The position numbers and the translations under genes are program-made. Source: Nitrospirota bacterium (GTDB taxonomy: Bacteria; Nitrospirota; Nitrospiria; Nitrospirales; Nitrospiraceae). Taken from it: DNA of 64,000 nucleotides. Shown piece after piece: positions 2,998 through 49,348 of the stretch (position 1 is its first letter; every line of letters begins with the position of its first letter). The notes beneath the pieces are model-generated. The model ran no database searches. It was not told the DNA's origin and worked only from the letters and a program-made list of their open reading frames with translations. Location: NCBI GenBank assembly GCA_030682135.1, contig JAUXQT010000108.1:1-64000 (forward strand), given 5' to 3'.

Positions 2998-3006
2998 GAC
3001 GAGGTG

Positions 3007-3105: not shown

Positions 3106-3160
3106 GTTAACGCCGAGTTAACATAGCGTTGACCTGACAGAAACCTCTGGTTTTTATAAC
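3106..3160 (+). promoter_or_regulatory. Pho-box-like array and -10 of the PstS-like gene
   Basis: GTTAAC (3106), GTTAAC (3117), GTTGAC (3128) and AGAAAC (3139) repeat with an exact 11-bp period. TATAAC at 3155-3160 follows the last slot by 10 bp and no -35 box is needed. This is the arrangement of PhoB-activated promoters and the clearest example in the window. Confidence 0.65.
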
Positions 3161-3208
3161 AATAGAATTAGGTACCGTGAAGCACTACTGGATTGGAGGC
3201 ACTGATTG

Positions 3209-18174: not shown

Positions 18175-18246
18175 CCGGGTCCTCTCAACAGGTCTCATCC
18201 ACCGGACGAGACCTCACATGGGAGCTAGGTGATCTGTAGGTAGTCC

Positions 18247-18312
18247 AGTTTATCGCTCACCGGTAGAGCGATGGCATCGTCAATATCAAGTTTGTGTTAA
18301 CAGAATGTTAAA
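18247..18312 (-). promoter_or_regulatory. Pho-box-like array of the XrtD export operon
   Basis: On the minus strand TTTAAC, GTTAAC and CTTGAT start 11 bp apart (18312, 18301, 18290). After two degenerate slots a -10-like TAAACT starts 10 bp further on (18252-18247). The conserved stretch TTAACACAAACTTGA is also present at 20752-20768 and 27801-27817. Confidence 0.6.
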
Positions 18313-20713: not shown

Positions 20714-20779
20714 AGTCTACTGCTGACAGGTCAACCAATGGAGTCGGCAACCTCAAGTTTGTGTTAAGCCAACGTTAAA
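20714..20779 (-). promoter_or_regulatory. Pho-box-like array of the glycosyltransferase-hydrolase unit
   Basis: On the minus strand TTTAAC (20779), CTTAAC (20768), CTTGAG (20757), a degenerate slot, and GTTGAC (20735) keep an 11-bp period. A -10-like TAGACT begins 10 bp after the last slot (20719-20714). CAGCAGTAGACT is also found at the 27.8-kb array. Confidence 0.65.
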
Positions 20780-27761: not shown

Positions 27762-27828
27762 AGTCTACTGCTGGTGGTACGATGACACGGCCACGCAGAT
27801 CTCAAGTTTGTGTTAACAAATCGTTAAA
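27762..27828 (-). promoter_or_regulatory. Pho-box-like array of the flippase-polymerase unit
   Basis: On the minus strand TTTAAC (27828), GTTAAC (27817) and CTTGAG (27806) keep the 11-bp period. TAGACT at 27767-27762 lies where the 20.7-kb array has its -10 box, shifted by one base. The stretches AACACAAACTTGAG and CAGCAGTAGACT match the 20.7-kb array. Confidence 0.6.
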
Positions 27829-30557: not shown

Positions 30558-30929
30558 ATGGACCGCTCCTCGGTTTCGGGTCACCAGATGAATTGGCGGT
30601 CCCAGAGGGACGACATCCGACCCAAGAGGTGAACAAACGTAGTCTGGCAAGAATGTTCGCATGAGTTAGGCGCCGAACCAGGTAGCCCCACCGCTCTTCG
30701 TCTTGGAAGAGTATGTACGAGGCCCGGCTCACCCTCGCTGAGGGAGACGATCTCAACATCGTTCAGATTACCCGCAACCCACATGTCGCAAAGCGCTTGG
30801 AGAGAATTAAGAGATCCAGACGGAGGGTCACGAAGGCTCCTGGCAGGATACTTCAGGCAGGGAGAAGAAGATATGACCCGAATGGATGCTGCGAGGATGG
30901 ACGCCCGTCCCCGCAGAGTGCGGTCCCAT
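30558..30929. other. Gene-free stretch
   Basis: 372 bp between the SGNH-type lipoprotein gene and the first VPLPA-CTERM gene. The open frames here have no recognisable domain and no ribosome sites. No repeat array or clear promoter is visible. Confidence 0.4.
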
Positions 30930-34173: not shown

Positions 34174-35772
34174 TTATGGCCTATCGTTCACGGCTGTCAA
34201 ACATGCCGGCGCGCCGGACACGTTGGACTTCCAGTTCACCGGGCCCTTGTCTTGGGACTTCGTCACGTGCATTTCCTGTGGCGAGACCCAATACCGCCCG
34301 ACGTTGGGCAGATTGTTGATGATGCTTGGGCTTTCCGCCTGGGTCAAGAATGCACTGATGAGGATCTGTTCGTTCGCGCCGGCTGGGGGCACATTCCGGG
34401 TGTTGAACGCTTCGAACACCCAGTACTGCTGTTTGCCGCAGCGAATATTTTCCTTCTCGTTGCCAAAATAGACCGCTTCTTCGACCGGAGGCACATGCCC
34501 GTTGGCGCTATCGTTGCGCAACGACTTGCCGCCGTCCACCGCCACCACATAACCGGCCGCCGGACTCACAGTTGCAGCCTGTTCCGCTTCCATATAGGCG
34601 GCCGCGGTCGGATGGGCCGGGCGCACGCCCGGGAATGGGAACGGATCGTTCGAGGGAATGGTCGGGCTGGCGTTGCCCTGGATGCAGTCCCGCACATCGT
34701 TGTTCGAGATACCGGACAGCGTCGTCGGCCCTGCGGTTGGAGTCGCTGGCGTACCCAGCGTCAAATTGAAGCTGCCGCTGCCGGTTGGCGTTTGGCCGGT
34801 ATGTTCGTTCGCGTCCTTCATGAGTGTCTGATCGAAGGCCGCCTTCGTGCCGGACCCGGCACGACGCTGGCACAAGATGATCGTCTGATTATCCGAGCTA
34901 TTCACGACTCCGTCACCGTTGGTATCGGCCCCGATTCCACTGAACTGGGTCCAACGTGTCACGTTACGGGAAAACAACGCCTCGATCTGCAACTGCGTCA
35001 AGTTGCGAACCGGGCCGATCACGGAACCGCCGGCCGGATTGATCAATTTCACCGCACTGCCCAGCACGATGGAGAAGGGCACCACGACTGGACGGCTCGA
35101 AGTGATATTGCCGTCGGCGCGAGGACCGACGACGATCGATCCCTGTAACGTCGACCCGATATATCCGACCGAGGTCTGGCCGAATGAGGTGGCCGCCACG
35201 TCAGACACGCCCAGATTCACCACCAGGGCTCCTGCCGGATTGGTGGTCGGGCTCGGGCTGAATTGCGTACAGCTGGGATAGAACTGTCTCGTCCGACCCA
35301 GCGCATCGAGTTCCGTCGTCGGCGCGCCGCAAGACGCGGGATTCTCAAGGACGTATACCTCCCGGGCCGCCGGGTTCGGGGTCACGCCGTCATTGTTGAC
35401 CGTCGGGAACGCGTTCGGTTTATCGATCCCGCCTGAGGAGCTAGTGGATTGATACCGCACCACGATGCTGGGCAAGCCGACGACATTGGTGGCTTCGCAG
35501 ACCCAGGTAATGAACTTGGAGTTGGCCAGACGGTTCCCCGCAGGACCGAGCGAGCCGTCCATGAAAATACGCGGCGCGGTCGCACCGCCCACCTGAGTGG
35601 GAGCTGGACCAGTTGGATTGTTACAAAGGGTGACCGGCACTTCTTCGACGAACGGTTTGGCCGCCGAGGCGCCGGCGACGTTCAAGACTGTCTGGGCCTG
35701 GGCCGACACAGCCACTCCTGCAATCGACGCCAGAGCAGCGAGGATTGCCATGGATGTCTTCATTGATCTCAT
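34174..35772 (-). CDS. Large PstS-like binding protein with calcium-loop insertion
   Basis: A 532-residue exported protein related to phosphate-binding proteins. Signal peptide about 1-27 (AVSAQAQ). The mature protein starts TVLNVAGASAAKPFVEEV, like the first ligand loop of PstS, and has the loop RRAGSGTKAAF near residue 305 with the phosphate-binding SGT. Just before it, near residues 283-295, is DTNGDGVVNSSD, which matches a dockerin/EF-hand-type calcium loop and is not part of ordinary PstS. It is longer than PstS by about 180 residues. AGGAG lies 8 bases before the ATG at 35772. It sits among VPLPA-CTERM genes with no permease genes, so an extracellular phosphate-scavenging or DING-like role is likelier than ABC import; this is inference. 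Confidence 0.75.
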   Translation of the reverse strand: MRSMKTSMAILAALASIAGVAVSAQAQTVLNVAGASAAKPFVEEVPVTLCNNPTGPAPTQVGGATAPRIFMDGSLGPAGNRLANSKFITWVCEATNVVGLPSIVVRYQSTSSSGGIDKPNAFPTVNNDGVTPNPAAREVYVLENPASCGAPTTELDALGRTRQFYPSCTQFSPSPTTNPAGALVVNLGVSDVAATSFGQTSVGYIGSTLQGSIVVGPRADGNITSSRPVVVPFSIVLGSAVKLINPAGGSVIGPVRNLTQLQIEALFSRNVTRWTQFSGIGADTNGDGVVNSSDNQTIILCQRRAGSGTKAAFDQTLMKDANEHTGQTPTGSGSFNLTLGTPATPTAGPTTLSGISNNDVRDCIQGNASPTIPSNDPFPFPGVRPAHPTAAAYMEAEQAATVSPAAGYVVAVDGGKSLRNDSANGHVPPVEEAVYFGNEKENIRCGKQQYWVFEAFNTRNVPPAGANEQILISAFLTQAESPSIINNLPNVGRYWVSPQEMHVTKSQDKGPVNWKSNVSGAPACLTAVNDRP

Positions 35773-35844
35773 ATAATCCGCTCCTGTGATTATGGTGATG
35801 TACACTCTAAACGTTGCTTGTCGAGATTCCCGCTTCAGATCGAC

Positions 35845-36600
35845 CTATGCCGCCATTCTATTCATCGAGCGGCGGGCAATGCCCACGAGTCCGACCAAAC
35901 CGGTTCCGAACAGAATAACCGCAGCCGGTACCGGCACTGCCGCTGGCGTGATCGTCAATTGCCCGGCCGCTGACAAGAAGGCTGTTGCGACTCTCACATA
36001 GGTCTCTGCTTCCCCGTTGATGTTGACGGCGAAGATATTGAGGAGCTGCCCGAGCGTACCATGGGTCGTAAAGCCCAATTGGCCGTTGACGACACCGGCC
36101 GTCCCGAGAAAATTCGTGAACGAATGAGGAGCCGCGGTCGAGGTGAGCGAGGGGTTATTGAGATACACATTCGAATTGCCACCGGTTTGGGCGGCATGTT
36201 GCCCTGCCCAATTCAGAAATTCGCCCGCCGCGTTGACGGCAAAGCTGTTATTGGCCTGGTTCGCGGTAATCGTGGAACTGGTCGACGATACATAAAACGT
36301 CTGGCCGTCCGTCGAGGTGCCCATGACTGAATAGCGCAGCCCCGTTGCAGCTCCAACGTTCAGAGTCGAGAGGTTGCCACTGATGTCGCGAGTTAGCGAC
36401 GAAGTCCCTTCGAAAGCCGGAAGGGCTGAGTTCGGCCCGAAATTCTCATAGCGCTGGTCGTTCCCCCCGTACACGAAAAACCCAGCGTCCCCGAAGTTGA
36501 ACCCCAGGGCAAACACGTTCGATGGTACGCCGGCGCCGGCGACGGCCGACACTGCGACGAGCGCCGCCAGCAGCCGCTTTACATGACTCTGTCTCTTCAT
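35845..36600 (-). CDS. VPxPA-CTERM sorting-signal protein 3
   Basis: A 251-residue secreted protein. Signal peptide about 1-32 (ALVAVSAVAGAGVPSNVFAL). Body rich in Asn, Gly, Ser and Thr. The exosortase signal at the end is VPVPAAVILFGTGLVGLVG followed by RRSMNRMAA. GAGGAGG lies 6 bases before the ATG at 36600. It is unlike the other two VPLPA proteins in the body. The larger PstS-like gene starts 72 bp after its stop codon, so the two may be co-transcribed. Probable substrate of the XrtD exosortase at 16.5 kb. Confidence 0.83.
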   Translation of the reverse strand: MKRQSHVKRLLAALVAVSAVAGAGVPSNVFALGFNFGDAGFFVYGGNDQRYENFGPNSALPAFEGTSSLTRDISGNLSTLNVGAATGLRYSVMGTSTDGQTFYVSSTSSTITANQANNSFAVNAAGEFLNWAGQHAAQTGGNSNVYLNNPSLTSTAAPHSFTNFLGTAGVVNGQLGFTTHGTLGQLLNIFAVNINGEAETYVRVATAFLSAAGQLTITPAAVPVPAAVILFGTGLVGLVGIARRSMNRMAA

Positions 36601-37144
36601 GGTCTTCCTCCTCAGTGATTGATGATATCTGACCGATCTGCCTCTGCCTGCACAGGATGCGACTCTCTCGATCCACCCCTTCTGCCCGCGATGACCAGGC
36701 TCCGTCTCCTGGAGCCTCCGTTCACCTCCTCCCCATGGACGTTCCTTCATCGGTCCGTCACGGGGTCATATGTCTCATATCGGTGTTACCTCGCGATCAG
36801 TTCCTCCTTGCCTGACGGTTAACCCTGTATGAAGATCTCGTGCACATCGGACAGGTAACCCCTATACCGCATACCTGTTCTACGCGAGTACGATTACAAA
36901 CCCGTGGACGTTGTCTTTAGGTGCTGTAAACTCTGAGTACCGACTCAGGTGTTCAGGCTGAAGGCTGGAAATGATCTCGCAAAGCAGGAATTCTTCAATA
37001 GCAGATTGAAAAGCTGAAGACTAAAAGCCTTCAGTCTTCAGCCTATCTACCTGAGCAGTTCTCAAGCCAGATCAACGAGATGAACCATGGCCAATCAATA
37101 GATGACGAGAGGCCAGAACCGCATCACGAGATACGCGCCAAGGA
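36601..37144. other. Gene-free stretch upstream of VPxPA-CTERM gene 3
   Basis: 544 bp without a credible gene. On the minus strand GTTAAC (near 36825) and GGTAAC (33 bp further) are in 11-bp phase, but the slots between them do not match, so I do not call an array. A hairpin lies at 37013-37042. Confidence 0.4.
37013..37042. other. Perfect 10-bp inverted repeat after tonB
   Basis: GCTGAAGACT and AGTCTTCAGC are separated by 10 bases. It lies about 100 bp past the stop of the TonB gene and could end that operon, although no T-run follows. Confidence 0.5.
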
Positions 37145-37780
37145 CTAGGTCGGGGGAAAGAACTTGACGATGATCGTGCGGTCCATGCCGGGAGGGGGAG
37201 GCCGGACTTCGGCCACCTTCGCGAGGGCGTCGAGCGCGGATTGATCGAACAACAGGCTGCCGGATGAGTTGATGAGTCGATATTGCAGCACACGGCCCTG
37301 CTCATCGAGGATGAGTTCGCACAGCACCGCATATTCCAGATCGTCTTGGAGAGACGGCGGTTGCTGATACTTCGATTGAATCGACGCAGTCAAAATATCC
37401 GTATAGCCGGCGAACCGTCCCCGGCCCTTGCCGATGGCGAAGGGATCGGAACTGACCGGCGGTGGACCGGGCGCATCCGAGGCCTTGGGGGGCGGAGGCG
37501 CTTCCGCCGTCGGTGGCGGAGGCGGCGGGGCCTCTTGCGGCTTGGGTTCTTGCTTGGGAGGCTCCGGTTCAGGCTCAGGCTCAGGCTCTTTTTCCGGTGG
37601 CGGGGGCAGTTCTTCTTTTTTGAACGCGTTCAGCTTGTAGACCTTGATCAGGTCCTGGCCCCATTGGGTTTGGGACACCCAATACAAACCACCCCCGATG
37701 CCAAGATGCACCACGCCCACGATCAGGAGCGTCGTGCCGAGCTTGCTCTTCTTTTTTTCAAAACCCTTGTAGCCGGCCAT
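37145..37780 (-). CDS. tonB: TonB-family energy transducer
   Basis: A 211-residue inner-membrane-anchored protein. It has a basic N terminus, one membrane segment (about 15-35, TLLIVGVVHLGIGGGLYWV), a Pro/Glu/Lys-rich spacer (about 54-100, with EPEPEPEP and PPPPPP) and the TonB C-terminal domain (about 125-211, with CELILDEQGRVLQYRLINSS and VRPPPPGMDRTIIVKFFP). It passes proton-motive energy from ExbB-ExbD to an outer-membrane partner. It is the last gene of an operon that also encodes a two-partner secretion system, but no TonB-dependent receptor is seen here. A 255-bp gap with two palindromes separates it from exbD. Confidence 0.9.
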   Translation of the reverse strand: MAGYKGFEKKKSKLGTTLLIVGVVHLGIGGGLYWVSQTQWGQDLIKVYKLNAFKKEELPPPPEKEPEPEPEPEPPKQEPKPQEAPPPPPPTAEAPPPPKASDAPGPPPVSSDPFAIGKGRGRFAGYTDILTASIQSKYQQPPSLQDDLEYAVLCELILDEQGRVLQYRLINSSGSLLFDQSALDALAKVAEVRPPPPGMDRTIIVKFFPPT

Positions 37781-37798
37781 CTCTTCAATTCGTGAAAT

Positions 37799-37903
37799 GT
37801 GAAGCGTGAAACGTGAAGCGTTTTTCAGGAGTGGAGTTTCTAGTTTCAGGTTTCATGTTGTCAGGAGGCTATCTCCGAACACTCGAAACGCTTCACGCTT
37901 CAC
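37799..37903. repeat. Imperfect inverted repeat between exbD and tonB
   Basis: Arms GTGAAGCGTGAAACGTGAAG (from 37799) and CGAAACGCTTCACGCTTCAC (37884-37903) pair imperfectly. The left arm also contains a short direct repeat, GTGAARCGT. It lies directly before the tonB start codon and may affect its expression. Confidence 0.55.
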
Positions 37904-37916
37904 AAACAACTTGCGG

Positions 37917-38032
37917 GATGCTCAAAAAGTTCGTCAGCAAGGCCGCAGCGAGTGAAGACCTGAGGCGTACCCTTGCGGTACGTTGAAGGTCTGAACGATG
38001 CGAGAACGAAGCTGGCGGGCTTTTTCAGCATC
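37917..38032. repeat. Dispersed palindromic repeat, copy 2
   Basis: 116 bp, with ends GATGCTCAAAAAGTTCGTCAGC and, on the other strand, GATGCTGAAAAAGCCCGCCAGC (first 20 bases shown match in most places). The interior AAGGCCGCAGCGAGTGAAGA and AACGATGCGAGAACGAAGCT are nearly identical to the copy at 57460-57581. It begins within 4 bp of the exbD stop codon. Confidence 0.75.
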
Positions 38033-38035
38033 CTG

Positions 38036-38452
38036 CTACGGTTCATTCGTTGGTTTCGTTGCAATCGCGAGATCCTCGACCGGAATCCGTTGCAGAATAT
38101 CCAGCACGGCCACCACATGTTTGTACTCCACTCCGGAGTCGCCCCGGAGCACGAGTGGCAGCTTGCCGCCCTTAGCAGCTTTCAAGTCACGAATGAGTTT
38201 TTCCAGTTCGTTGAGCTTGACGCGCTCTTCGTCCATATAGACATCGCCGTTCTTCTTCACGGAAATCGTCGGTGTCGTGGTTTCCATTTCCGTTTCATGC
38301 GGCGTGGATTCAGGCAGTTTCAACTCGATCCCCTGCACCGCCGCCGTCGTCGTGATGATAAAGATCACGAGCAGCACCCAGGCCAGGTCGAGCAAGGGGG
38401 TCATGTTGATATCGGCAACCGCGCCGTGCGATTTGCGTGAAAAACGTCTCAT
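38036..38452 (-). CDS. exbD: ExbD-type biopolymer transport protein
   Basis: A 138-residue inner-membrane protein with one membrane segment (about 17-42). The proton-relay aspartate is in MTPLLDLAWVLLVIFI. The periplasmic domain ends in a PG-binding-like fold (LRGDSGVEYKHVVAVLDILQ). With ExbB and TonB it forms an energised motor. It starts 106 bp after exbB. A palindromic repeat follows the stop. Confidence 0.9.
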   Translation of the reverse strand: MRRFSRKSHGAVADINMTPLLDLAWVLLVIFIITTTAAVQGIELKLPESTPHETEMETTTPTISVKKNGDVYMDEERVKLNELEKLIRDLKAAKGGKLPLVLRGDSGVEYKHVVAVLDILQRIPVEDLAIATKPTNEP

Positions 38453-38558
38453 ATCTTCCTTTCAGGAATGGGCGAGAGGTGCGAGGCTAGAGGCAATGGG
38501 CAGGAATAAGTTCGGCGCCCCTTGCCGCTCCGCCCCTGGCCCCTAGCCTTGCCCCACT

Positions 38559-39341
38559 TCAGTGCCCCGTCGCCGCAGCGGAGGGTTCGGCTTCTTGGCG
38601 GTGCCCGCCAGGCCGGTAGTCTTCAATATCGTCTGACGCAGCAGCTGCGCCCTTCTTTTCTTGGAGATAGTCCGTCATGAACACGGTTTCGAGATGGGCT
38701 GCGAAGTTATCGAGTTCCATCGTGAGCGTTTTTGTCTTCGTCACGAGGAAGTTGTAGCAAAAGAGGGAGGGGATCGCGACCATGAGCCCCGCGACCGTCG
38801 CGATGAGCGCGGAGGCCACGCCAGGAGCCATCGTCGCGAGCGTCGCCGACTGGGCCTTGCCGATGCCGGCGAAGGTGTCCATGACTCCCCAGACCGTCCC
38901 GAGCAATCCGATAAAGGGCCCACCGCTGATGGCCGTCGCCAGCACGATCATGCCTGATTCCAGGCTGACGGCTGCTTCCCCCAACACCCGCTCGAGGGCA
39001 ATTCGCACGGCGCTCATGCCATGATGCGGAATCTGTTCCACCCCATACTTTTCCTGCTGCACCTTCAGTTCTTCGCATCCGCCGAAATAGACTTCGTACA
39101 TCGGTGAGCCTTGCAACTGTTTGATCGGGCCTTTACCGAAGATCACCAGCGGGCCTTTGGCCTTGGAGTAGTAGCCGAGAAACAGGCCATTCCGCTTCTT
39201 GGCCTTGGCCAACTGGCGAAACTTGTTGATGATCACCGTCCAGCTGACGAGGGAAAACAACAGCAACACCCCGATGGTAATCTTGCCTTCGAGCGTCGCG
39301 TGGTTGAGCGCAAATGCCACGCCTCCTGAACTCATTTCCAT
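38559..39341 (-). CDS. exbB: ExbB/TolQ-type proton-channel protein
   Basis: A 260-residue inner-membrane protein of the MotA/TolQ/ExbB family with three membrane segments: about 20-40, 135-160 (GGPFIGLLGTVWGVMDTF) and 180-200 (GVASALIATVAGLMVAIPSL). Forms the proton channel with ExbD. GGGAG lies 7 bases before the ATG at 39341. The gene begins 19 bp after the TpsA stop, so motor and secretion genes are clearly in one operon. Confidence 0.9.
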   Translation of the reverse strand: MEMSSGGVAFALNHATLEGKITIGVLLLFSLVSWTVIINKFRQLAKAKKRNGLFLGYYSKAKGPLVIFGKGPIKQLQGSPMYEVYFGGCEELKVQQEKYGVEQIPHHGMSAVRIALERVLGEAAVSLESGMIVLATAISGGPFIGLLGTVWGVMDTFAGIGKAQSATLATMAPGVASALIATVAGLMVAIPSLFCYNFLVTKTKTLTMELDNFAAHLETVFMTDYLQEKKGAAAASDDIEDYRPGGHRQEAEPSAAATGH

Positions 39342-39360
39342 GCTGCATCTCCCTTATTCG

Positions 39361-42300
39361 TTAACCGCCCGATGGAGCCTGTGGCTTCACATCGACTTGA
39401 ATGATGACCCCGCGTTTCATTTGGACCGACTTGGCCATTTGAGACTTTTTATCCTTCTCGCCGTCTTTCGACGCCACTTGCTTCCCGCTGTTCGAGGCCG
39501 ACGAGCCGGTCGATTCCGAGGTCGTTTGCTGAACCTGCTCGACCGCCTTGGCTGCCGTCGACGAAGTGGTGCTCGTCGAGGCTGAGGTGGCAGAGACGGT
39601 TGAGGTGGCACCGCTCAAGCCTCCGACCGAACCGCCGCCGGCGCCGCCGGCAGCCGACACGGATGCGCCGCCCACCGACCCTGCCGCGGCGCCGGCGAAG
39701 GCGCCGAGGGATCCGGAGACCGATGAGGCGCTGAACGTCGCCTTCCCGATGATCGACCCACCGAGGAGGTTGAGTGCGTCTCCCGCCTCGAGGTTGATGC
39801 GCCTCCCTCTGATGCCGGCCTGCGGCACATCAATGTTTCTTGCCGCAATCAGTGAAATATCTCCCAACTGCAGAGGTCGGCTGCCGGGGCCGAAGGGCGC
39901 CTGTATGAACTCCTCAAATATTCTGTCGTACTCGACTTTGCGGATCTCCGTGAGCCGGTCGAACTCTGCAACCAGATCGGTTGCGTCCCGGCCCAAGAAC
40001 CTGCGCTTGGTAATGCGGGCGAAGAGCACGTTCATCTGAGGGGTGTTGAATGTCGGAAAGGGCAAGGTTGAAAAATCCGGATCGTACCGCTCCCAGGTAA
40101 AAATTCCGCTCCCGGGAACGGTGGCCAACGTTTGCGGCTGCCCAGGCCCGTTATCAAGCACGAAAAGTGCCTGCTCATCCTTACTCCCGCTGCCGGCATT
40201 GATCGTCCCTGCCGTGGACTTGATCAGAATGTTGCCGGAATCGAACGTCCCGATGCGGGACCTATTCACGTCCACATCTCCCGTCGAGAGAATTCTAATG
40301 CTGCCTCCACGCAGCGTGACGATGCCGGTCTGTTCGGCATTGCCGCCCGCCACAGTGCCGCCGACATTGACCTTGCCCCCGACCGGCGTAATCACGGTAA
40401 CGTCTTGCCCGCCAATCCTCAGCATGAGACTGCCATCCACCAACGCTGGTCTGCCATCCACCAACAGCACGGTTCCGTTCGCGTCGCGAACCGGGTTGCG
40501 ATCGACGAGCACGACCTTTTGTTGAAAGACGATCTGGTCTCCTTGATGGACGCGCTGCCCGCCGATCAAGAACAGCTGGCCGGTTTGTTCGACAAAGAGC
40601 GGTTTCCAGACCAGTTCTACCTGACCGTTGATGACGTCCTGCGCGGTGAACAGGGTCTGCGTGGGATTGGCCAGATCCACGGGAAGCAGGGTTTTGTAGG
40701 CCAGAATCGGGGCGGATGCGCCGGTCTGGTCAGGAAGCGCCAGCACCATGGTTCCCGATTGATCAATCAGCAGGGCCCTGGTCTCCACTGCGCCTGGGAT
40801 GGGTCTGCCGGTCGCATCGACGATCCGCACCCCATCCGCTCCATGGATGAAGATGCTTCCGCCGTTCAACGTGGCCATCTGCGATTGAGTCATCTCGATA
40901 TTTCCGCCGGCTCCGATATCGAGCAATCCGCCTTGCCGCTGTAAAGAAATGGTCGCCGATGCCACTCCGATCCGATGAACGATCCCGATGCTATCGCCAA
41001 GATCGATGTTGCGATTGGCCCGGACTTCAGCATTGCCATTACCCACGAAGGTAATGCCCGCTGTGGTAAACCCCGGCGTTCTCCTCAGTTCGATCGAGCC
41101 AGCGGCATGAATACGCGCCGCGGCTTCCCCGTTGGCCAAAAGCGGCAGAGAGATGCCTGTGGCTAAAATTCCTCTGATATCCCCCCCGGAACTGATCGTC
41201 GTCTGTCTCAAGTAGGGACTCACAAACGTGAGCTGTAACCCTGAGATATCCCCTGCCTGAGTCGACAGACTGATCGTGGCGGCAGGAGGAGCGGTGGAAG
41301 TGAAGGGGGTCCTCAGATCCCGATCAATCTGGAACTGTTGAACGTCCTGCCCCAAGAGGGACTCCACTGTTCCCTCGTTCAGTTTCAGCACTGCCGGAAT
41401 TCCGGCTCGCCCTAGGACCGTCGGCTTCACCCGTAAATCCATTGGAGGAAACCCTGCCAGGACGAAGGAAAATCCTGGCACGTTTGGCACATCCTCTGCC
41501 CCCCCCTGAAAGCTCAGATCTCCCCACCGTTGCAGCCATGGTCTCAAATTCGGATCCGCCAGGGCCACGGACTCATTCACCCTCACCCATCGGGCAGCAG
41601 GATCACCAGGGGTGCCGGTATAGATCAACACCGAGTCTTGAACGATCAGTTGTTGTAACGGCCCCTGCCCCTTAATCTCCTGCCTTGCAGAGAGCCTGAT
41701 CGATCCGGTCGGCGATGGCCAGAAAGACAAGCCACTGGTGCCCGTGACAAGAATAATGCTGCCTTCGTCGGCTGTCGCGGAAAAGTTGGCAGGAAAGAGC
41801 CGTCGCGCAGCGGCGAATTCTCCGGTTGGTCTGCCCGGCTCAATCAGGATGTTGCCGGTGCGAGCTGTCAGATTAAGGCTGCTGTTGGCCGAGAGAAATC
41901 CGGACTCTCGCAAGCCGAAATCCTCCGCCAGACTGAAAAAGATCGATCGGCCTGCATTCAAGTTAGCCGTATTGCGAGGAACGGTGAAGGTCCCGTCGCC
42001 GTTGTCGATCCGGCCGCCAAGGATCAGATTGACCGGCGCCAGTTCCGTTCCGATATCCCGCCCGGCGGCTACGTCCGCAATGCCACCCTGAAGCGTAAAA
42101 CCAGGCCCTCTCTGGTTTCTCGTCGAGACTGGGCCACGCACATCGTTGCCGGCCCGAATCGTGAGGTTTCCCGGCAGCCCCACATGAACACCGGGAAGAC
42201 CGGGAAGGGATACGCGGCTATTGCTATAACGCTCAAACGGACTGGGTATCACCAGGTCGTTCACCGCCGAGAGGCTGATGTCTCCCCCCACCGATGCCGT

Positions 42301-43734
42301 ATTCACGCTCGCGAATTCATTGGGTCCATCGACCAATGCCAGATCGTTACCTGCATGCAAATGGATGCTGCCCCCCCCTGCCGTGCTGACTTGGCCGGCC
42401 GTAATCGTGAGATCTCTCCCGGCGCGACCGAGGATATTCCAATGCGCCCCCAATGACTGGAACTCACTATTGGTAAACGTCAGGTTTCGTCCCGCATTCA
42501 GATGAAACGTCCCCGCCTGGCCGAAGGAAAGCCCCAATGCATCGAGGGATGTGGAGGTCGTGACGTTGATGTCGTCCATCGCCAGGACGTTGATTTCTCC
42601 GCGAGCGGCGCCCGGCGCGAGCGACAAGAGTTCGGCGTCCGAAAGATCGAATCGATCGGGAATAAGCCGGTGGGTTGTCCCCAAGACCGTCCCATTTTGG
42701 TTCACAGAGGTTCCACCCAGCCAGACTTCACCGGCCACGCCTCCCGCGCCTGGCCTGACATCGATCGTGGCGCCGGATTCTACTTGCACGCTTCCCCCGG
42801 TGCGGATGCCGGACGCATCGCGCGTGGCCGCCGTCGCGATGACGGTGCCTCCGTGGGCGCCGGCTTCACCACCGGTGCTGATGGTTTGACTGCTGGCCCT
42901 CATGGTCACCTGCTCGCTGGCCACCAGCTCGATCCGGCCGTTCCGCTGGACGACACTGTTGGCCTGGATGAGATTCCCCTGATTCACGACCCGTCCCGCC
43001 ATGGTCACCTGCCCGCCGTCTGCGAACAACTGCCCGAGATTCAACGCTTCTCCGGCCGGCGCCGTCACCTGGGAGAGAAAGCCTCTCCCGTCCGGGCGAT
43101 TGGAGAGAAAGGCCGTGCTTCCTGCTCCCAGTGACACGTGACCGTTCGTGCTGGTGATGATGCCGGTCGCCGCATTCTCCACGTTCGGCGCAAAGAGATA
43201 GACGCCTTCGACGCCGGCATTGATGGTGCCCGCATTCCTAATGGCTCCGTTCGTCCCGCTGTTCTGGAAGAGATACAGGCCGTTCAAGAAATTACTATCG
43301 CTGAGGTTGAGGGTCGATGCGGCAAACATGCCTCCGACGCTCACCTGACCGGTCGGGCCGATAAAGACGCCGTTGGGATTGAGCAGAATAAACGAACCGG
43401 TCGCATTCAGTGCTCCGTCGATCTGCGTCGCAGGCCCGAATACACGGGCAAGCATCCAGCCTCCGACCGGTTGCGTAATATTGACGATGTGATTCGGCGC
43501 GATGTTGAAATCGCTCGCATGGACGATAGCCCGGGCCGTCGATTGTGCAATTTCCGTCACCACTCTGCCGTCGGCTCGCGTGACCGGAGCTTGGACCACA
43601 ACGCCACCATGGACGACTTCCGTGATCGTGACGGCTGCCTGCACCGGCAGCGCAAGAGTCGCAGAGAGCACCCAGACCAATCCTACCGTCGCCCCTTGGC
43701 GGATGGCATTCAATCGTCGCTTGGTCCTATTCAT
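39361..43734 (-). CDS. Two-partner secretion exoprotein (TpsA, filamentous-haemagglutinin type)
   Basis: A 1457-residue secreted beta-helical protein. After a signal peptide (about 1-33), the TPS domain (about 34-280) carries the family features NITQPVGGW and SFILLNPNGVFIGPTGQVSV. Beta-helix repeats with NAG/GDI-type turns continue to about residue 1330. The last 130 residues are Ala/Ser/Thr/Gly rich, then Lys rich (KDGEKDKKSQMAKS), a low-complexity tail. Translocated through the TpsB channel encoded just upstream. The surface role (adhesion, matrix or nutrient capture) is unknown. Stop lies 19 bp before exbB. Confidence 0.88.
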   Translation of the reverse strand: MNRTKRRLNAIRQGATVGLVWVLSATLALPVQAAVTITEVVHGGVVVQAPVTRADGRVVTEIAQSTARAIVHASDFNIAPNHIVNITQPVGGWMLARVFGPATQIDGALNATGSFILLNPNGVFIGPTGQVSVGGMFAASTLNLSDSNFLNGLYLFQNSGTNGAIRNAGTINAGVEGVYLFAPNVENAATGIITSTNGHVSLGAGSTAFLSNRPDGRGFLSQVTAPAGEALNLGQLFADGGQVTMAGRVVNQGNLIQANSVVQRNGRIELVASEQVTMRASSQTISTGGEAGAHGGTVIATAATRDASGIRTGGSVQVESGATIDVRPGAGGVAGEVWLGGTSVNQNGTVLGTTHRLIPDRFDLSDAELLSLAPGAARGEINVLAMDDINVTTSTSLDALGLSFGQAGTFHLNAGRNLTFTNSEFQSLGAHWNILGRAGRDLTITAGQVSTAGGGSIHLHAGNDLALVDGPNEFASVNTASVGGDISLSAVNDLVIPSPFERYSNSRVSLPGLPGVHVGLPGNLTIRAGNDVRGPVSTRNQRGPGFTLQGGIADVAAGRDIGTELAPVNLILGGRIDNGDGTFTVPRNTANLNAGRSIFFSLAEDFGLRESGFLSANSSLNLTARTGNILIEPGRPTGEFAAARRLFPANFSATADEGSIILVTGTSGLSFWPSPTGSIRLSARQEIKGQGPLQQLIVQDSVLIYTGTPGDPAARWVRVNESVALADPNLRPWLQRWGDLSFQGGAEDVPNVPGFSFVLAGFPPMDLRVKPTVLGRAGIPAVLKLNEGTVESLLGQDVQQFQIDRDLRTPFTSTAPPAATISLSTQAGDISGLQLTFVSPYLRQTTISSGGDIRGILATGISLPLLANGEAAARIHAAGSIELRRTPGFTTAGITFVGNGNAEVRANRNIDLGDSIGIVHRIGVASATISLQRQGGLLDIGAGGNIEMTQSQMATLNGGSIFIHGADGVRIVDATGRPIPGAVETRALLIDQSGTMVLALPDQTGASAPILAYKTLLPVDLANPTQTLFTAQDVINGQVELVWKPLFVEQTGQLFLIGGQRVHQGDQIVFQQKVVLVDRNPVRDANGTVLLVDGRPALVDGSLMLRIGGQDVTVITPVGGKVNVGGTVAGGNAEQTGIVTLRGGSIRILSTGDVDVNRSRIGTFDSGNILIKSTAGTINAGSGSKDEQALFVLDNGPGQPQTLATVPGSGIFTWERYDPDFSTLPFPTFNTPQMNVLFARITKRRFLGRDATDLVAEFDRLTEIRKVEYDRIFEEFIQAPFGPGSRPLQLGDISLIAARNIDVPQAGIRGRRINLEAGDALNLLGGSIIGKATFSASSVSGSLGAFAGAAAGSVGGASVSAAGGAGGGSVGGLSGATSTVSATSASTSTTSSTAAKAVEQVQQTTSESTGSSASNSGKQVASKDGEKDKKSQMAKSVQMKRGVIIQVDVKPQAPSGG

Positions 43735-43754
43735 CGCGATGCTCCTTACTCGTC

Positions 43755-45584
43755 TTAAAATCCAACGCTGACCATAAAGTGCGTAAACGTATCGCCGCGC
43801 TTGGTCGTGCCGGTCGTTTGCAGCGCCATCGCATGATCGAGCTGCAGATTCAGGTTGATCGGCTCGATCCTCATCCGCAGGCCGCCGCCGGCGCCTTCAA
43901 GCCGGGAGATGTCTTGTTGCCCGGCCGGCGCCCGCTTGGTCCAGAGCCTGGCGTAGTCGTAGAAGGCGACCAGCTTCATCGTCGCCTTTACCTCGGAACT
44001 GCGCCGCCGTTGCCAGAAATAATCGATCGGGATAGAGGGCAAATCCGGCGTGTACAGTTCCGCGCGCCAGAGCAAGGCGTTATCCCCCAACGCTTCGTTT
44101 TGAATGTAGCCACGCACCGTATCCATTCCACCGGCAAAAAACTGTTCGGCAGGAATCAGCGGCTCCGAGGCCCATTGCCCATCGATTCGAGCGGACAACA
44201 GAAACTCGTTCGGCAAAGGTTGCATACGGCTGAGACCGGTCTTCACCACTCCGAACGTGCCGGTTGAGCCAGCTCGATTCCCGGGGAATTCGTCGGGATT
44301 GTTCGGGTCTCCTTGAAAGTCTTTCTTGCCTCCGCCGGGAATGAGCCCGGCGACGTAGCCGGTCAGGGTCGTGGTGAAGGTCGTCGACCCATAGGAGTCG
44401 GGATAGGTTCCCGTGTAGCCGGCAGAAACCGGCAGATATTGGATGGGGCTCAACACGATCGCGGTGCCTAAATCTCCGGGAAAGGTGGCTTCGGTTTTCT
44501 CCAGCCGTTTGAAGTCGGCGCCGAACGAGAGCTGATGCCCGGCCTTGCCGCCTTTGAAAATCGGAAAGAGATAGCGAAAACCGCCCACCGTCGCATTTCC
44601 CGCCACGGCGATGTCGCCACCCCCGCCGATCGGCAATGACGTTCCAGCCAGGGTCGAGTTGCTGCTCACCTTCGAGGCATACACCGCCAGCAAATGGTCG
44701 GGCCAGATCAGCGGCGCGACATAGCTGAAGCCGTAGGCCTGCACCGCTCCCCAATTGGTCGGCGTCTGCGTCGTCTGCAGCGTCAGGATATGGTCCTGCC
44801 CCCAGAGATTGCCGTATTGCGCTTCCCAGGTCATACGGGCAGCAGGCGTGGTGAACGGGCCTTTGTTATCGCCTGTCATCTTCGCATGGAGCGGCAGCCG
44901 GTCTGTCGCCTTCAATTCCAAATCCACTGTACCCTGCTCGCTACCGGGCTTCAGCACCGGCGCGATCTTGAGGTCGGGGTTGGCGTTGACAGCATCCAGT
45001 TGTTTCACGAAATCCGGCTCATAGAGCAGCGCGCCGATCTGTACCGAGGGCAGTTTTCCCAGTATGTTGTACCGGGAAAAATAGCGGTTGCCTGTCACCG
45101 TCAGGCCCAAGAGATGGCCTTCGACGACATCGAGCCGCACGGAGCCCTGATCGACCGATTGTTCCGGCACGACGACGAGGATCGTCGGATACCCCAACCG
45201 CTGATAGGCTTTTTCCAGTTCGACCCTCGCCCGGTCGATATCCTTGATCGTCTTCCCCGGTCCCTTATACTTGTTCAGGACTTCATCGATTTTCTCGCGG
45301 GAGAGAAGCGTGCTGCCGTCCACCACAAATTCCAGAATGGAAAACCCGACCGGTTCGACGTGATTCGACGCGGGAGTAGACGGCTCAGCCGGAGTTGCCC
45401 CGTTGGAGCCTGTGCTCTTTGCAGGCGGCTCAGCAGGCGATGCCGGCCTGGCCGGCCCTGGAAGGACCGGCCGATCCGGCAGGACCGGTTGAACGGAGAC
45501 ATCGGCGACAGCCCACGCGTCTGCCATTCCGCCGCCCATCATGAGTCCCAATGCCACGATGACACCTCCAAACCGTCTCACCAT
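43755..45584 (-). CDS. TpsB outer-membrane transporter (ShlB/FhaC type)
   Basis: A 609-residue outer-membrane protein. Signal peptide about 1-27, a Pro-rich linker, then POTRA domains (about 72-230; VGFSILEFVVDGSTLLSREK, VVEGHLLGLTVTGNRYFSRY). The C-terminal barrel has the conserved channel-loop motif GGMDTVRGY and ends in FTHFMVSVGF with a terminal phenylalanine. It exports the TpsA protein. It is the first gene of the secretion-ExbBD-TonB operon, and a five-slot repeat array lies 115-180 bp upstream. Confidence 0.9.
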   Translation of the reverse strand: MVRRFGGVIVALGLMMGGGMADAWAVADVSVQPVLPDRPVLPGPARPASPAEPPAKSTGSNGATPAEPSTPASNHVEPVGFSILEFVVDGSTLLSREKIDEVLNKYKGPGKTIKDIDRARVELEKAYQRLGYPTILVVVPEQSVDQGSVRLDVVEGHLLGLTVTGNRYFSRYNILGKLPSVQIGALLYEPDFVKQLDAVNANPDLKIAPVLKPGSEQGTVDLELKATDRLPLHAKMTGDNKGPFTTPAARMTWEAQYGNLWGQDHILTLQTTQTPTNWGAVQAYGFSYVAPLIWPDHLLAVYASKVSSNSTLAGTSLPIGGGGDIAVAGNATVGGFRYLFPIFKGGKAGHQLSFGADFKRLEKTEATFPGDLGTAIVLSPIQYLPVSAGYTGTYPDSYGSTTFTTTLTGYVAGLIPGGGKKDFQGDPNNPDEFPGNRAGSTGTFGVVKTGLSRMQPLPNEFLLSARIDGQWASEPLIPAEQFFAGGMDTVRGYIQNEALGDNALLWRAELYTPDLPSIPIDYFWQRRRSSEVKATMKLVAFYDYARLWTKRAPAGQQDISRLEGAGGGLRMRIEPINLNLQLDHAMALQTTGTTKRGDTFTHFMVSVGF

Positions 45585-45699
45585 GCCTCATCATTTCCTC
45601 TGGTAACCGAGCCCTTGTTGTCGGCCTGTCTGCTCTTCGTCTGGGCTCCTGCAGGACAGGGACAGCCCGGCAGTCCATTTGCTGCATGCTACGCGTAAA

Positions 45700-45765
45700 G
45701 AAGTATCGTTCAATTGTTACGGCGGGGTTACTGACAACTTGTGGCCCTGTTAACTTCTGGTAAAC
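45700..45765 (-). promoter_or_regulatory. Five-slot Pho-box-like array of the TpsB-TonB operon
   Basis: On the minus strand GTTTAC (45765), GTTAAC (45754), CACAAG (45743), AGTAAC (45732) and CGTAAC (45721) keep an exact 11-bp period. TACTTC starts 10 bp after the last slot (45705-45700). The array lies between divergent genes and could also serve the GspC-like gene, but its orientation favours the TpsB side. Confidence 0.6.
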
Positions 45766-45844
45766 AGGCCTTTCCCCCATTGCCATTGGCCGGCGCTCGG
45801 CATAGGCTCTCCTCGACTTCAGAAAGAACAAGGACACATCACCT

Positions 45845-46720
45845 ATGAAACCGACTCACATCCGGCATCTCGTCATCGTCCTGTATCTCCTCGCAGCCAC
45901 ACTGCTCCTTGCGCACTCGATCAACGCGTTTGTCGAGCATGAGCTCACCACGATTCCCGAGTCCGGCTCGGACAACGTTGTGACGACCGAGCCGGCGTCA
46001 AGCCCCCTCTACACCTCGGTTCAACTTGTCGAGCAGATCAGAACCAGTGGCTTGTTCCCGCTTCCGGCACAACAGTCCGTCCTCGCAGCTAACGGCGCAC
46101 CGGCCGCACCTCCGAAGCCTCCGCTCGACATTGCCAAGAAGCTCCGCTTGCTTGGCACCATCGTGAGCGACCGGGAGGGCGGAGCTGCCGTGATCGAGGA
46201 TATCGCCTCGAAGCGGCAGGGCTTATTCCATCTCCACGACACCATCCCCGATCTCGGTGAGATCCATGCGATCCGGCGCGACGGCGTTGTGATTCGCCTC
46301 GATGACCAGGAAGAGCTGCTCCAACCGGCCGTGCTGCAACAGGATCAGGCCAGGCCGATGCCCGTGGCCATGACGTCATCCCAACAGGCCTTCGTTCCGC
46401 TGCTCAAACGAACATTGGATCGCCGGGAAGTAATGGAGGCCGTCAGCGATCCCACCAAGTTGATGATGCAGGCCCACGCGGTGCCGTACATTACGAACGG
46501 GACGCTAAGCGGCTTTCGACTCGACTTCGTTGCTCCGGCCAGTTTTTTCGAGAAAGCGGGTTTTCTATACGGCGATGTGATTCAACGCATTAACGGAGTC
46601 GAGATTCGCGATCCTGGCCGGCTGCTGAGTTCGTTTCAGCAGGTCGTGAACGAACGCACTGTGAAAGTCGACCTGATCCGTTCCGCGCAAAACACGACGC
46701 TCACCTATGATCTCCGCTAG
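45845..46720 (+). CDS. GspC-like type II secretion protein
   Basis: A 291-residue inner-membrane protein of bitopic type. One membrane segment (about 9-28), then an HR-type domain (about 90-165; KKLRLLGTIVSDREGGAAVI) and a C-terminal PDZ-like domain (about 205-290; DFVAPASFFEKAGFLYGDVI and INGVEIRDPGRLLSSFQQV). This is the layout of GspC, which couples the inner-membrane platform and the outer-membrane secretin of type II secretion. No other type II genes are in the window. It is divergent from the two-partner secretion operon and probably shares its control region. Its partner system must be elsewhere. Confidence 0.78.
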   Translation: MKPTHIRHLVIVLYLLAATLLLAHSINAFVEHELTTIPESGSDNVVTTEPASSPLYTSVQLVEQIRTSGLFPLPAQQSVLAANGAPAAPPKPPLDIAKKLRLLGTIVSDREGGAAVIEDIASKRQGLFHLHDTIPDLGEIHAIRRDGVVIRLDDQEELLQPAVLQQDQARPMPVAMTSSQQAFVPLLKRTLDRREVMEAVSDPTKLMMQAHAVPYITNGTLSGFRLDFVAPASFFEKAGFLYGDVIQRINGVEIRDPGRLLSSFQQVVNERTVKVDLIRSAQNTTLTYDLR

Positions 46721-46782: not shown

Positions 46783-46821
46783 TGTAACCGGAAGTTAATC
46801 GAGGCGTAACTAGGTCGTTAT
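46783..46821 (+). promoter_or_regulatory. Pho-box-like repeats before the outer-membrane barrel gene
   Basis: TGTAAC (46783), GTTAAT (46794) and CGTAAC (46805) are 11 bp apart, with a weak CGTTAT at 46816. No convincing -10 hexamer is seen at the usual distance. Confidence 0.4.
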
Positions 46822-46884: not shown

Positions 46885-47712
46885 TTGAGATCGGTGCAAT
46901 GGCGAGCAATGATCAGGGTACTGCTGTTGGGTGTCGCAATCATGGGCGCCCACTCCATTGCTCAGGCGGAATGGTATGCCGGAGGATACGGAGGGCTCAG
47001 CACGTCTGGCTCTATCACGGACGCCACCATGCCGCTCTTAGGGCAACGACTCGCAGAGCAGCAATTTCCGCAAGCCAATGAACCGCTCAATAGTAGCGGT
47101 CGTGGCACGCTGACCCAAACGTTCAAGACATCGGATGTCTCGCTTAAGAATTCTGCCATCTTTGGAGGAAAGGTCGGATACTTTTTCACCGAGGAGAAAC
47201 TCTCCTGGCTCGGCGTCGAACTGGAAGCCTTCACCACAAATCCGAAGATCAAGACCCAAACACTCACGACCGCTCAAGACATTCAGTACCAACCCAACAC
47301 TCCTGCACCGGCGGCGCAATGTCCTCCTCAAAACATCATCAATCCCCAGCCGAACTGCCCGGCATCTGTGCTCAACAGATCGAGCCTGACCTTGCAGGAA
47401 TCCTCTCTTCGTGTAAGCACAGTGGCCTTCAACCTCATCGCCCGTTATCCAGGACAATTCTTCCAGCCCTACGCCGGGGTCGGAGCCGGGGCCTTCTATT
47501 TTTCCTCCTCAAATGGGAGTATCCAGGGCCGCCAGTTCCGTCCCGGCCTCAATCTGCTCGCAGGAACCAAGGTTCGTGTTACCGACGAGTGGGGGCTGTT
47601 CGCGGAAGGAAAGTATAATATTGCCAATGTCAGTAACTTGGATCCGACCTTCGGACTGAGCGGCATGTACAGCATCTTCCACCTGGTCGCGGGGGTCGCG
47701 TACCACTTTTAA
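46885..47712 (+). CDS. Outer-membrane beta-barrel protein, TTG start
   Basis: A 275-residue outer-membrane protein. Signal peptide ends near SIAQAEW. The mature chain opens EWYAGGYGGLSTSGS and ends HLVAGVAYHF, as in small OmpA/Opa-like barrels, with loop-like NSPxQ-rich inserts (about 130-160). The TTG at 46885 has AGAGGAGG six bases before it, which is far better placed than the ATG at 46909, so a TTG start is likely. It lies 164 bp after the GspC-like gene with its own repeat array. Function unknown. Confidence 0.78.
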   Translation: MRSVQWRAMIRVLLLGVAIMGAHSIAQAEWYAGGYGGLSTSGSITDATMPLLGQRLAEQQFPQANEPLNSSGRGTLTQTFKTSDVSLKNSAIFGGKVGYFFTEEKLSWLGVELEAFTTNPKIKTQTLTTAQDIQYQPNTPAPAAQCPPQNIINPQPNCPASVLNRSSLTLQESSLRVSTVAFNLIARYPGQFFQPYAGVGAGAFYFSSSNGSIQGRQFRPGLNLLAGTKVRVTDEWGLFAEGKYNIANVSNLDPTFGLSGMYSIFHLVAGVAYHF

Positions 47713-47863
47713 CGAACCATGGATGCGGTTACATTACTTCCCCACCGGGATCCACTTTCAAGGCAAGAGTTCCACCACAGGCCCAGCGCGGCTTTAGCGA
47801 TTGCGTTCCCATCCTTCGGGCGAGGATACTTGGGGCTGCAGCGCCTGCGGTGAGGAAACCAGC

Positions 47864-49348
47864 ATGACTCGATCCGACAGCCGTCCCCCTGTTCTCCGTC
47901 CCTGCCGTGCCCTGTCCTCGAAAGTCGAGCGCGAGATCAAGCTCGCCATCGATCCTGATTTCCGCCTCCCCACTCTTCCCGGCACCCCGCTGCCACGACA
48001 TCTGCTGACCTCGACCTACTACGACACGTCCCAGTACGACCTGGCCCATACGGGAATCACCCTCCGCCATCGCATCGCGCGAGGAAAACAGGCCTGGCAA
48101 TTAAAACTCCCGCTGATGAAAGACCGGCAGGAAATCGAGCTGGTCGATCGTCAGTCAATTCCACCAGCCTCCTTTCGCGATCTGCTCTTTCTCCATGTGG
48201 GACAACGGGAACTGGTGCCGGTCGCCACACTACGGGTCTGGCGCGCCGGCGTCCGCGTGCGCATCGACAAAATCGATGTCGCAGCGGTCACGATCGACCA
48301 GGTGTCGGTCGTGAAGGACGGAGTCCTGCTCGATCGTTTTCGAGAACTCGAAATTGAACAGGTAAACGGGAAGGACGACGTGTTGTCTGACCTCGAACGG
48401 CAGCTCCGCCGAGCGGGAGCCCACGATCATGACGGGCGCCCCAAGCTCTTTCGCGCGCTCTCCCTGCCCGCGCCCAGGCCTGAACCGCCTCCGGCGCCGG
48501 ATGCGCCGGCGATCGATCATGTGAGGTGGATCCTTACACGTCATGTCCGATGGCTGCTGGCGCATGACCCTGGCGCCAGACTCGGAAGGGAACCGGAAAG
48601 CCTGCATCAAATGCGCGTGGCCACGAGACAATTGCGCGTTGTCCTGCGCACCGCCAGGCCCCTGCTCCTTCCTGCATGGGCAGACTCGCTGCACGATGAG
48701 CTGCGCTGGCTCGGCCAACTATTGGGACCGGCTCGCGATCTCGATGTCCAACTCGCCTATTTCCGGGAAGAAAGTACGGCACTCGATGCGGGAGACCGCC
48801 GACCGCTGGCACCCTTCATCGCCCACCTGGAAGTCCAAAGAAATCAGACCCACGACGTCCTGCTGCGGGAGTTACAGGGCGCACGATATCTCGACCTCAT
48901 CAGGCGGCTCCAGGATGCGACGGTCAATCCAACCGCTGTCGAATCGGCCGTGACCCTGCACGACCTCGCCACAGGCACGTTCAAGAAACTGCGGAAGGTG
49001 CTTCGCCAGGTCGGTGCGTCACCCACCAGTGCCATGATCCACGAGATCAGGATCAAAACTAAACGGGCCCGCTATGCAGCGGAACTGGCGGAGCCGGCCG
49101 TCGGTAAACCGGCTACTCGTTTTATCAAAAAAGCGCGAGTCGTCCAGGATGTCTTAGGGCTGTATCAGGATGCCATTCAAGCCGAAGCCTATGTCAGGGC
49201 CTTCCTCAAGCAATCGGCCAGCGTGAGAGCGGCCTTCGTTGCCGGGCGTATGGTCGAACGTCAGCGAGAACGCCGCGCACAGGCGAGTCAAGAGATGCGG
49301 ACTCTATGGGAAGGGCTGTTGAAGCGAGGGGAAAACGCTTGGGGATAA
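47864..49348 (+). CDS. CYTH-CHAD domain protein
   Basis: A 494-residue cytoplasmic protein. The N-terminal CYTH domain (about 20-215) has the metal-binding VEREIKLAIDP (ExExK) and THTGITLRHRIARGKQAWQL-type strands; it hydrolyses triphosphate compounds in characterised members. The CHAD domain (about 225-490) has LHQMRVATRQLRVVLR and IHEIRIKTKRARYAAEL, with regularly spaced histidine, arginine and lysine. CHAD domains bind polyphosphate, which links it to the ppk1 gene in this window. GAGGA lies 7 bases before the ATG at 47864; the open frame extends upstream to a TTG at 47801 without a ribosome site. Confidence 0.88.
   Translation: MTRSDSRPPVLRPCRALSSKVEREIKLAIDPDFRLPTLPGTPLPRHLLTSTYYDTSQYDLAHTGITLRHRIARGKQAWQLKLPLMKDRQEIELVDRQSIPPASFRDLLFLHVGQRELVPVATLRVWRAGVRVRIDKIDVAAVTIDQVSVVKDGVLLDRFRELEIEQVNGKDDVLSDLERQLRRAGAHDHDGRPKLFRALSLPAPRPEPPPAPDAPAIDHVRWILTRHVRWLLAHDPGARLGREPESLHQMRVATRQLRVVLRTARPLLLPAWADSLHDELRWLGQLLGPARDLDVQLAYFREESTALDAGDRRPLAPFIAHLEVQRNQTHDVLLRELQGARYLDLIRRLQDATVNPTAVESAVTLHDLATGTFKKLRKVLRQVGASPTSAMIHEIRIKTKRARYAAELAEPAVGKPATRFIKKARVVQDVLGLYQDAIQAEAYVRAFLKQSASVRAAFVAGRMVERQRERRAQASQEMRTLWEGLLKRGENAWG

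Follow-up and report, generated by a model that had tools for sequence, protein, structure and literature searches.

Two-partner secretion (TPS), in which the outer-membrane transporter TpsB exports the exoprotein TpsA, is a route thought to need no motor. A 64,000-nucleotide stretch from a Nitrospirota bacterium (henceforth termed the window; contig C31:1-64000 of genome G000, part of a 3.75-Mb assembly) carries an island that suggests a motor acting on this route. Between positions 37145 and 46720, genes for TpsB, TpsA and an ExbB-ExbD-TonB motor are aligned on the minus strand, divergent from a plus-strand gene for the type II secretion component GspC. We find this arrangement in about 30 loci of the family Nitrospiraceae, with a direct-repeat array between the divergent genes that also occurs at promoters of phosphate genes. 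The case for the island, its gene order and a Pho-type control, as read from the sequence, is strong. That the products form a surface display engaged in phosphate capture is probable, and an action of TonB on TpsA itself is plausible.

The order TpsB-TpsA-ExbB-ExbD-TonB divergent from GspC had been proposed in an earlier note made from the letters of the window, and profile searches confirm it. TpsB (43755-45584, minus strand) combines a POTRA_2 domain with a ShlB/FhaC barrel (PF08479 8e-16 and PF03865 2e-17, both above cut-off), and TpsA (39361-43734, minus strand; 1457 amino acids) has an N-terminal TPS domain (PF05860 1e-12, 48.8 bits against a cut-off of 33.5; TIGR01901 5e-11), the domains expected of type Vb secretion. 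All three motor components lie in the same minus-strand cluster: an ExbB/TolQ-like proton channel of the MotA/TolQ/ExbB family with 260 amino acids and no DUF2341 (38559-39341; PF01618 4e-29), an ExbD/TolR-like protein (38036-38452; PF02472 1e-27), and a TonB-like energy transducer of 211 amino acids with a proline-rich spacer and a TonB_2 C-terminal domain (37145-37780; PF13103 1.4e-9; TIGR01352 above cut-off), whose mean column conservation across 26 relatives is 0.86. The spacing of 19 bp that the note had read between tpsA and the start of exbB is exactly 19 nucleotides, which is also the median gap in 26 loci. The GspC-like protein (45845-46720, plus strand) contains an HR domain and a PDZ-like region (PF11356, 34.4 against a cut-off of 27) and has OutC (1.6e-5) and PulC among its PDB relatives, while it misses the GspC equivalog cut-offs (TIGR01713, 65.4 against 101.6; NF041515, 120.3 against 150). 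The exbD-tonB interval (37798-38040) holds short inverted repeats and a palindromic stretch resembling repetitive extragenic palindromes or miniature inverted-repeat transposable elements (GTGAAACGTGAAGCG...; GTTCGTCAGCAAGGCCGCAGCGAGTGAAG...).

For a view of the island across the family, TpsB was searched in 175 Nitrospiraceae genomes, and the window proteins were mapped onto 39 fetched loci. At E 1e-20, TpsB has matches in 40 of these genomes, spread over 9 of 22 genera. Tightening the threshold to E 1e-40 leaves 34 genomes, and no additional genome of the order matches at that level. About 30 loci share, within contig reach, the order PstS-like, PEP-CTERM, TonB, ExbD, ExbB, TpsA, TpsB / GspC, beta-barrel (and CYTH-CHAD), even where TpsB identity drops to 53%. 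Random gene order among relatives, the outcome that was to count against the earlier proposal, is thereby refuted, and the conserved unit is broader than the 37145-46720 block: it also takes in the PEP-CTERM and PstS-like genes (34174-36750) and, on the other side, the beta-barrel and CYTH-CHAD genes (46885-49348). The former of the latter two encodes a small outer-membrane barrel (OMP_b-brl; 46885-47712, plus strand; PF13505 3.5e-9) that follows GspC in nearly all loci. The CYTH-CHAD-like protein (47801-49348, plus strand), a domain name given from reading of the sequence and without an NCBIfam match, is a recurrent neighbour in many loci. Two rearranged loci, L071 and L073, have a single-strand set of TpsA, PEP-CTERM, PstS-like (in L071; not detected in L073), TpsB, ExbB, ExbD, TonB and GspC. 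Since GspC stays on the same strand as ExbB, ExbD and TonB there, it travels with the motor. In a third rearranged locus, split over L074 and L127 of genome G048 and interrupted by PEP-CTERM genes, ExbB and GspC are still close. Together with L072, these loci make up a second Nitrospiraceae island type, with TpsB 44-47% identical, TpsA in first place and many PEP-CTERM insertions in G048. Our literature search found no paper describing such a TPS system in Nitrospira.

The intergenic region common to tpsB and gspC contains an array of five slots at 11-bp spacing (45716-45765; GTTACGGCGGG GTTACTGACAA CTTGTGGCCCT GTTAACTTCTG GTAAAC), and a second 11-bp array (46783-46821, plus strand) stands upstream of the beta-barrel gene, where relatives show a match to the array in the corresponding position. 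A slot spacing of 11 bp is that of Pho boxes. In the 31 TpsB/GspC intergenic regions compared, the best four-slot score at this period averages 18.0, whereas shuffled sequence gives 15.45, and no excess is seen at periods of 9, 10, 12 or 13; the array that the earlier note had seen as shared by both divergent sides is thus conserved. In its own genome the pattern matches itself, the PhoB/PstS intergenic region of the window and a single site on contig C82, just upstream of genes for a phosphate-selective porin O/P (OprO/P) and PstS (the PstS2 unit). Eight relatives yield 38 matches, compared with 16 for a reversed control pattern, and about 24 of 29 fetched relative matches stand at PhoB/PstS, PstS/porin, TPS/GspC, beta-barrel or PEP-CTERM/PstS-like promoters. 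Because the whole-genome matches in these nine genomes fall mainly before phosphate genes, we read the TPS/GspC array as a Pho box, an 11-bp direct repeat that the island has in common with pstS-type promoters. Membership of the island in the Pho regulon, and with it the phosphate-type control suggested earlier, is well supported, with binding by the regulator inferred from these matches. A candidate regulator is encoded in the window: a PhoB-like response regulator with a Trans_reg_C domain (2290-3099, minus strand; TIGR02154 PhoB 2e-35, below the equivalog cut-off) is separated from a PstS gene (3206-4249, plus strand; TIGR02136 9e-56; PF12849 2e-30) by two 11-bp arrays (3035-3133), which contain the best GTTAAC array of the genome. 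A loose search for three GTTAAC repeats also matches two non-phosphate places, before similar flavoprotein-like open reading frames (ORFs) on contigs C52 and C76, and is therefore unspecific on its own.

The PstS-like product of the island is an exported, putatively phosphate-binding protein (34174-35805, minus strand, with a likely start near 35772; PF12849 1.8e-8). Its PstS-like nature, also claimed in the note, holds by profile (8e-12 against PDB PstS) and by structure: the predicted model, with a mean predicted local distance difference test (pLDDT) of 73, aligns with the PstS 4lat at Z 26.2 and a root-mean-square deviation of 2.3 over 260 residues, and with DING proteins at Z of about 16. 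It contains the PstS motifs S, SD and RxxxSGT, and the putative phosphate-pocket residues S115, S193-D194, R306 and S310-G311-T312 are invariant or nearly so in relatives. Judged from the model, the protein has a true PstS fold. It shares this fold and the pocket motifs with PstS and DING phosphate-binding proteins, but it is larger, carries extra conserved cysteines and has no pst transporter genes beside it. The adjacent gene (35845-36750, minus strand) encodes a PEP-CTERM-type exoprotein with a VPVPA tail (VPLPA-CTERM 4.5e-4 and PEP-CTERM 0.02) and a discernible layout of VPVPA, transmembrane segment and RR; it is conserved beside TonB and also occurs inside the alternative operon.

A possible point of contact between motor and TPS pair lies at the end of TpsA. 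In an AlphaFold model of residues 1000-1457, the chain is folded to about residue 1361 and has pLDDT below 50 beyond, from fragment residue 363, so that residues 1362-1457 (39364-39651, minus strand) are a predicted disordered linker and tail. The protein ends in a Ser/Ala-rich stretch followed by GV(V/I)IQVDVKP, which ranks among the three best-conserved decapeptides of the protein; in the window the peptide is GVIIQVDVKP (residues 1442-1451; 39382-39411, minus strand), a candidate TonB-docking strand. Of 34 TpsA ORFs, 27 have a strict form of this peptide in their final 25 residues, as against none of 806 other ORFs. A related strand is present in all six ExbBD-linked TpsA tails read from Pseudomonadota (ISVEILGYGD, ITVQVEGFGD, FTVRVLGFGN, ITVEVLGYGG, IMVDVVGFGD and LTVELLSLGD) and in none of ten TpsA proteins without ExbBD nearby, of which six stem from control loci. 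The genome's own receptors have short TonB-box strands of similar make-up at their N-termini, EVVVSAT and EIVISAT. Such an arrangement in TpsA, a predicted folded part followed by a disordered tail with a conserved peptide, is the one expected of a linear docking motif. A TonB box near the N-terminus of TpsB, where the earlier note had proposed to look, did not emerge: no conserved TonB-box-like segment is apparent there, and of the ten TpsB decapeptides with the highest conservation not one falls within residues 1-80, before POTRA, which leads us to reject such a box as a conserved feature. Our tentative proposal is that the motor acts directly on TpsA, whose flexible tail would reside in the periplasm and pair with TonB through its terminal beta-strand, allowing the proton-motive force to control retention, tension or release of the surface fibre.

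From the linkage, arrays, folds and tail conserved in the sequences, we infer the following functional steps. Upon phosphate shortage, a PhoB-type regulator would bind the 11-bp-repeat arrays and activate tpsB-tpsA-exbB-exbD-tonB, gspC, the gene for the beta-barrel and the PEP-CTERM/PstS-like pair, four units that lie divergent from or adjacent to one another. TpsA would be exported by TpsB as a large surface fibre, while GspC may serve as a dedicated type II adaptor that routes a companion exoprotein, probably the PstS-like protein, via the type II machine shared by the genome. Fibre, exosortase-processed PEP-CTERM protein and PstS-like protein could then constitute a cell-surface layer for phosphate capture and adhesion. 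The target of ExbB-ExbD-TonB would be the TPS system: most likely, TonB would pair with the C-terminal strand of a still-periplasmic TpsA, which may serve to hold, tension or release the fibre. We give this full model, a Pho-regulon surface-secretion island with a motor acting on TPS, an even chance.

Several points weigh against it. TPS works without a known energy source, and P. aeruginosa tpsA, tpsB and tonB4 mutants show no virulence change in zebrafish (PMC7035377, PMC2729926). The island is present in just 34 of 175 Nitrospiraceae genomes. The TpsA tail is only loosely TonB-box-like, the Nitrospiraceae and Pseudomonadota tails have no one strict consensus, the tail regular expressions were composed after the sequences were seen, and the linked tails may be common by descent alone. 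The reversed array pattern matched once in the own genome and 16 times in the eight relatives, against 4 and 38 for the real pattern, and single matches may therefore be chance. The PEP-CTERM gene scores below both model cut-offs (20.2 against 25.35 and 15.3 against 20.7), and the export route of the PstS-like protein is putative.

The motor might instead power uptake of phosphate or polyphosphate through an outer-membrane protein of the regulon, such as the small beta-barrel or the porin beside TonB in Pseudomonadota, with TpsA merely binding substrate at the cell surface, as HxuA does for HxuC. The HxuC-HxuB-HxuA system of Haemophilus influenzae (PMC5422565) is a precedent, in that a TPS exoprotein cooperates with a TonB-dependent step; there, TonB acts on a receptor, whereas no receptor is adjacent in the island. 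A porin lies directly 3' of TonB in Methylosinus, Klebsiella, Aquabacterium and Cupriavidus, and the CYTH-CHAD neighbour together with a ppk gene in the window suggests polyphosphate. However, the barrel encoded next to GspC is small, of the OMP_b-brl type, and the profile search detected no plug domain in it, the TonB-dependent receptors of the genome sit on other contigs, some near another ExbB, and the conserved TpsA tail would be left unexplained. We consider this route a serious but unlikely one. The location of receptors and other ExbB genes on other contigs likewise makes it unlikely that the motor is the power source for the genome's ordinary TonB receptors.

A looser relationship is conceivable, in which the genes are merely co-regulated Pho-regulon neighbours and the motor performs general, Tol-Pal-like envelope duties with no mechanical link to TPS. 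ExbB and ExbD cannot be assigned as equivalogs, as every NCBIfam equivalog score is below cut-off and TolQ/TolR models score best, above the ExbB/ExbD models; TonB matches TolA models in part, and a common array would be enough to account for clustering. Against this stand the tight tpsA-exbB packing in 26 loci, the recurrence of the linkage across phyla, and further MotA/ExbB genes in the genome that could see to general duties. On balance we regard mere co-regulation as improbable.

GspC was described as a lone homologue, which is correct for the locus but not for the genome: although a PF11356 search had suggested the window gene as the sole GspC, a protein search overturned this and identified a second, 47% identical GspC. 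This one belongs to a separate type II cluster on C82 that also includes E, F, G and pseudopilin-like genes; a GspD-type secretin is encoded on contig C55. In L045 (genome G008), the gene divergent from TpsB opens the series GspC-GspD-barrel-GspE-GspF-GspG, and a full type II operon therefore occupies the place of the window's GspC and barrel. Phylogenetically, housekeeping GspCs form one clade (100/98), and TPS-linked GspCs lie outside it and do not form one clade; L045 joins the window group with modest support (93/79). This grouping and the separate GspC of the housekeeping operon would fit the view that the window's GspC is a decaying relic, without present function, of a type II operon formerly located next to the TPS operon. 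We doubt this, given that some 30 species retain GspC intact, and that the gene has a Pho array of its own, adjoins TonB in L071 and L073 and lies near motor genes in L127. Elsewhere (L155:14347-17018), the housekeeping type II operon is immediately followed by a Pho-type array and then by genes for an OprO/P-like porin and PstS, a further link between type II and phosphate genes.

The closest described counterpart is the pdt/PUMA3-hxc locus of P. aeruginosa (PA0674-PA0701), where pdtA-phdA-pdtB-exbB2-exbD2-tonB4-PA0696 adjoins the Hxc type II genes, is controlled by PhoB and VreI and is induced by phosphate starvation; its tonB4 system has been called uncharacterised (PMC7035377, PMC2729926). 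The parallel drawn in the earlier note is apt: both loci unite a TPS pair, ExbB-ExbD-TonB and type II genes under phosphate-starvation control, which for the island is predicted from its Pho-type arrays. Unlike pdt-hxc, the island has direct Pho-type arrays, PEP-CTERM and PstS-like genes replacing phdA, PPIase, YbjN and LapA, and in most genomes GspC alone of the type II genes beside TPS. No VreA/VreI/VreR genes (STN, extracytoplasmic function sigma factor, FecR-like) were recognised among annotated neighbours from 28 to 49 kb, an assessment that for the ORF at 32151-33305 rests on visual inspection only. With these signalling genes, a DUF2341-ExbB and an adjacent porin missing, the island was not assigned to Pdt/PUMA3.

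Linkage of TPS genes with ExbBD and PA0696 had been pointed out for several Pseudomonadota by Llamas et al., and TpsB/TpsA with ExbB-ExbD-TonB recur on plasmids such as Methylosinus pMSC49a (GspD, substrate-binding protein, TpsA, porin, TonB, ExbD, ExbB, TpsB, FecR/sigma/STN genes), Aquabacterium pTB101 (type II genes, PEP-CTERM, one unassigned protein, TpsB, TpsA, ExbB, two ExbD, TonB, porin) and Klebsiella pKqq_SB98_1 (TpsA, TpsB, ExbB, ExbD, TonB, porin). In Cupriavidus USMAA2-4, a type II operon is divergent from PPIase-TpsB-ExbB-ExbD-TonB-porin, and Methylomagnum pRS11DPr1 combines phoU and a PstS-like gene with TpsB and TpsA; its ExbB/ExbD/TonB genes are found at a different place on the plasmid, close to alkaline phosphatases. 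In an independent ExbB search, several of the same plasmid loci rank first outside the family, with ExbB beside TpsB/TpsA. They differ from the island in the porin beside TonB, the DUF2341-ExbB fusion, a TpsA of about 3500-4600 amino acids and a TpsB only about 28-32% identical. In L140 (13622-15460) and other Pseudomonadota loci, the channel of the TPS-linked ExbB, a protein of about 600 amino acids, is preceded by DUF2341 and a ConA-like lectin domain, both absent in Nitrospiraceae (ExbB of about 260 amino acids). The combination is therefore known from Pseudomonadota plasmids and P. aeruginosa pdt/hxc, and its Nitrospirota form is new.

The role of ExbB2-ExbD2-TonB4 beside Pdt has been open since 2009, and a conserved version from a distant phylum with a common tail provides a specific molecular hypothesis centred on a 10-residue peptide. 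It also offers an explanation for the association of type II, TPS and TonB genes under phosphate control. If true, TPS with TonB-box-bearing cargo would be a widespread powered subtype, spanning Nitrospirota, Pseudomonadota and possibly P. aeruginosa Pdt. For Nitrospira, nitrifiers of water and wastewater treatment, the island points to an undescribed phosphate-starvation surface programme.

The window also encodes a potential processing partner for the PEP-CTERM protein, the VPLPA-CTERM-specific exosortase XrtD (16528-18198, minus strand; TIGR04152, 520 bits against a cut-off of 400), within an exopolysaccharide (EPS) locus. Among the 34 island carriers, 30 have XrtD-type genes, compared with 85 of the 141 other genomes (Fisher p 0.002, uncorrected for relatedness). 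In 15 genomes a distance of 22-67 kb separates XrtD from the TPS island, a larger conserved neighbourhood. This co-occurrence agrees with a PEP-CTERM partnership without proving it. An exported 747-amino-acid protein with no Pfam or NCBIfam match is encoded at 28419-30662, in a PEP-CTERM group adjoining the island. Three EPS/exosortase promoters (18285-18312, 20752-20779 and 27801-27828) contain a near-identical CTCAAGTTTGTGTTAA followed 6-7 bases on by GTTAAA, unlike the Pho array; this CTCAAGTTTGTGTTAA-GTTAAA motif is possibly the site of an EPS regulator.

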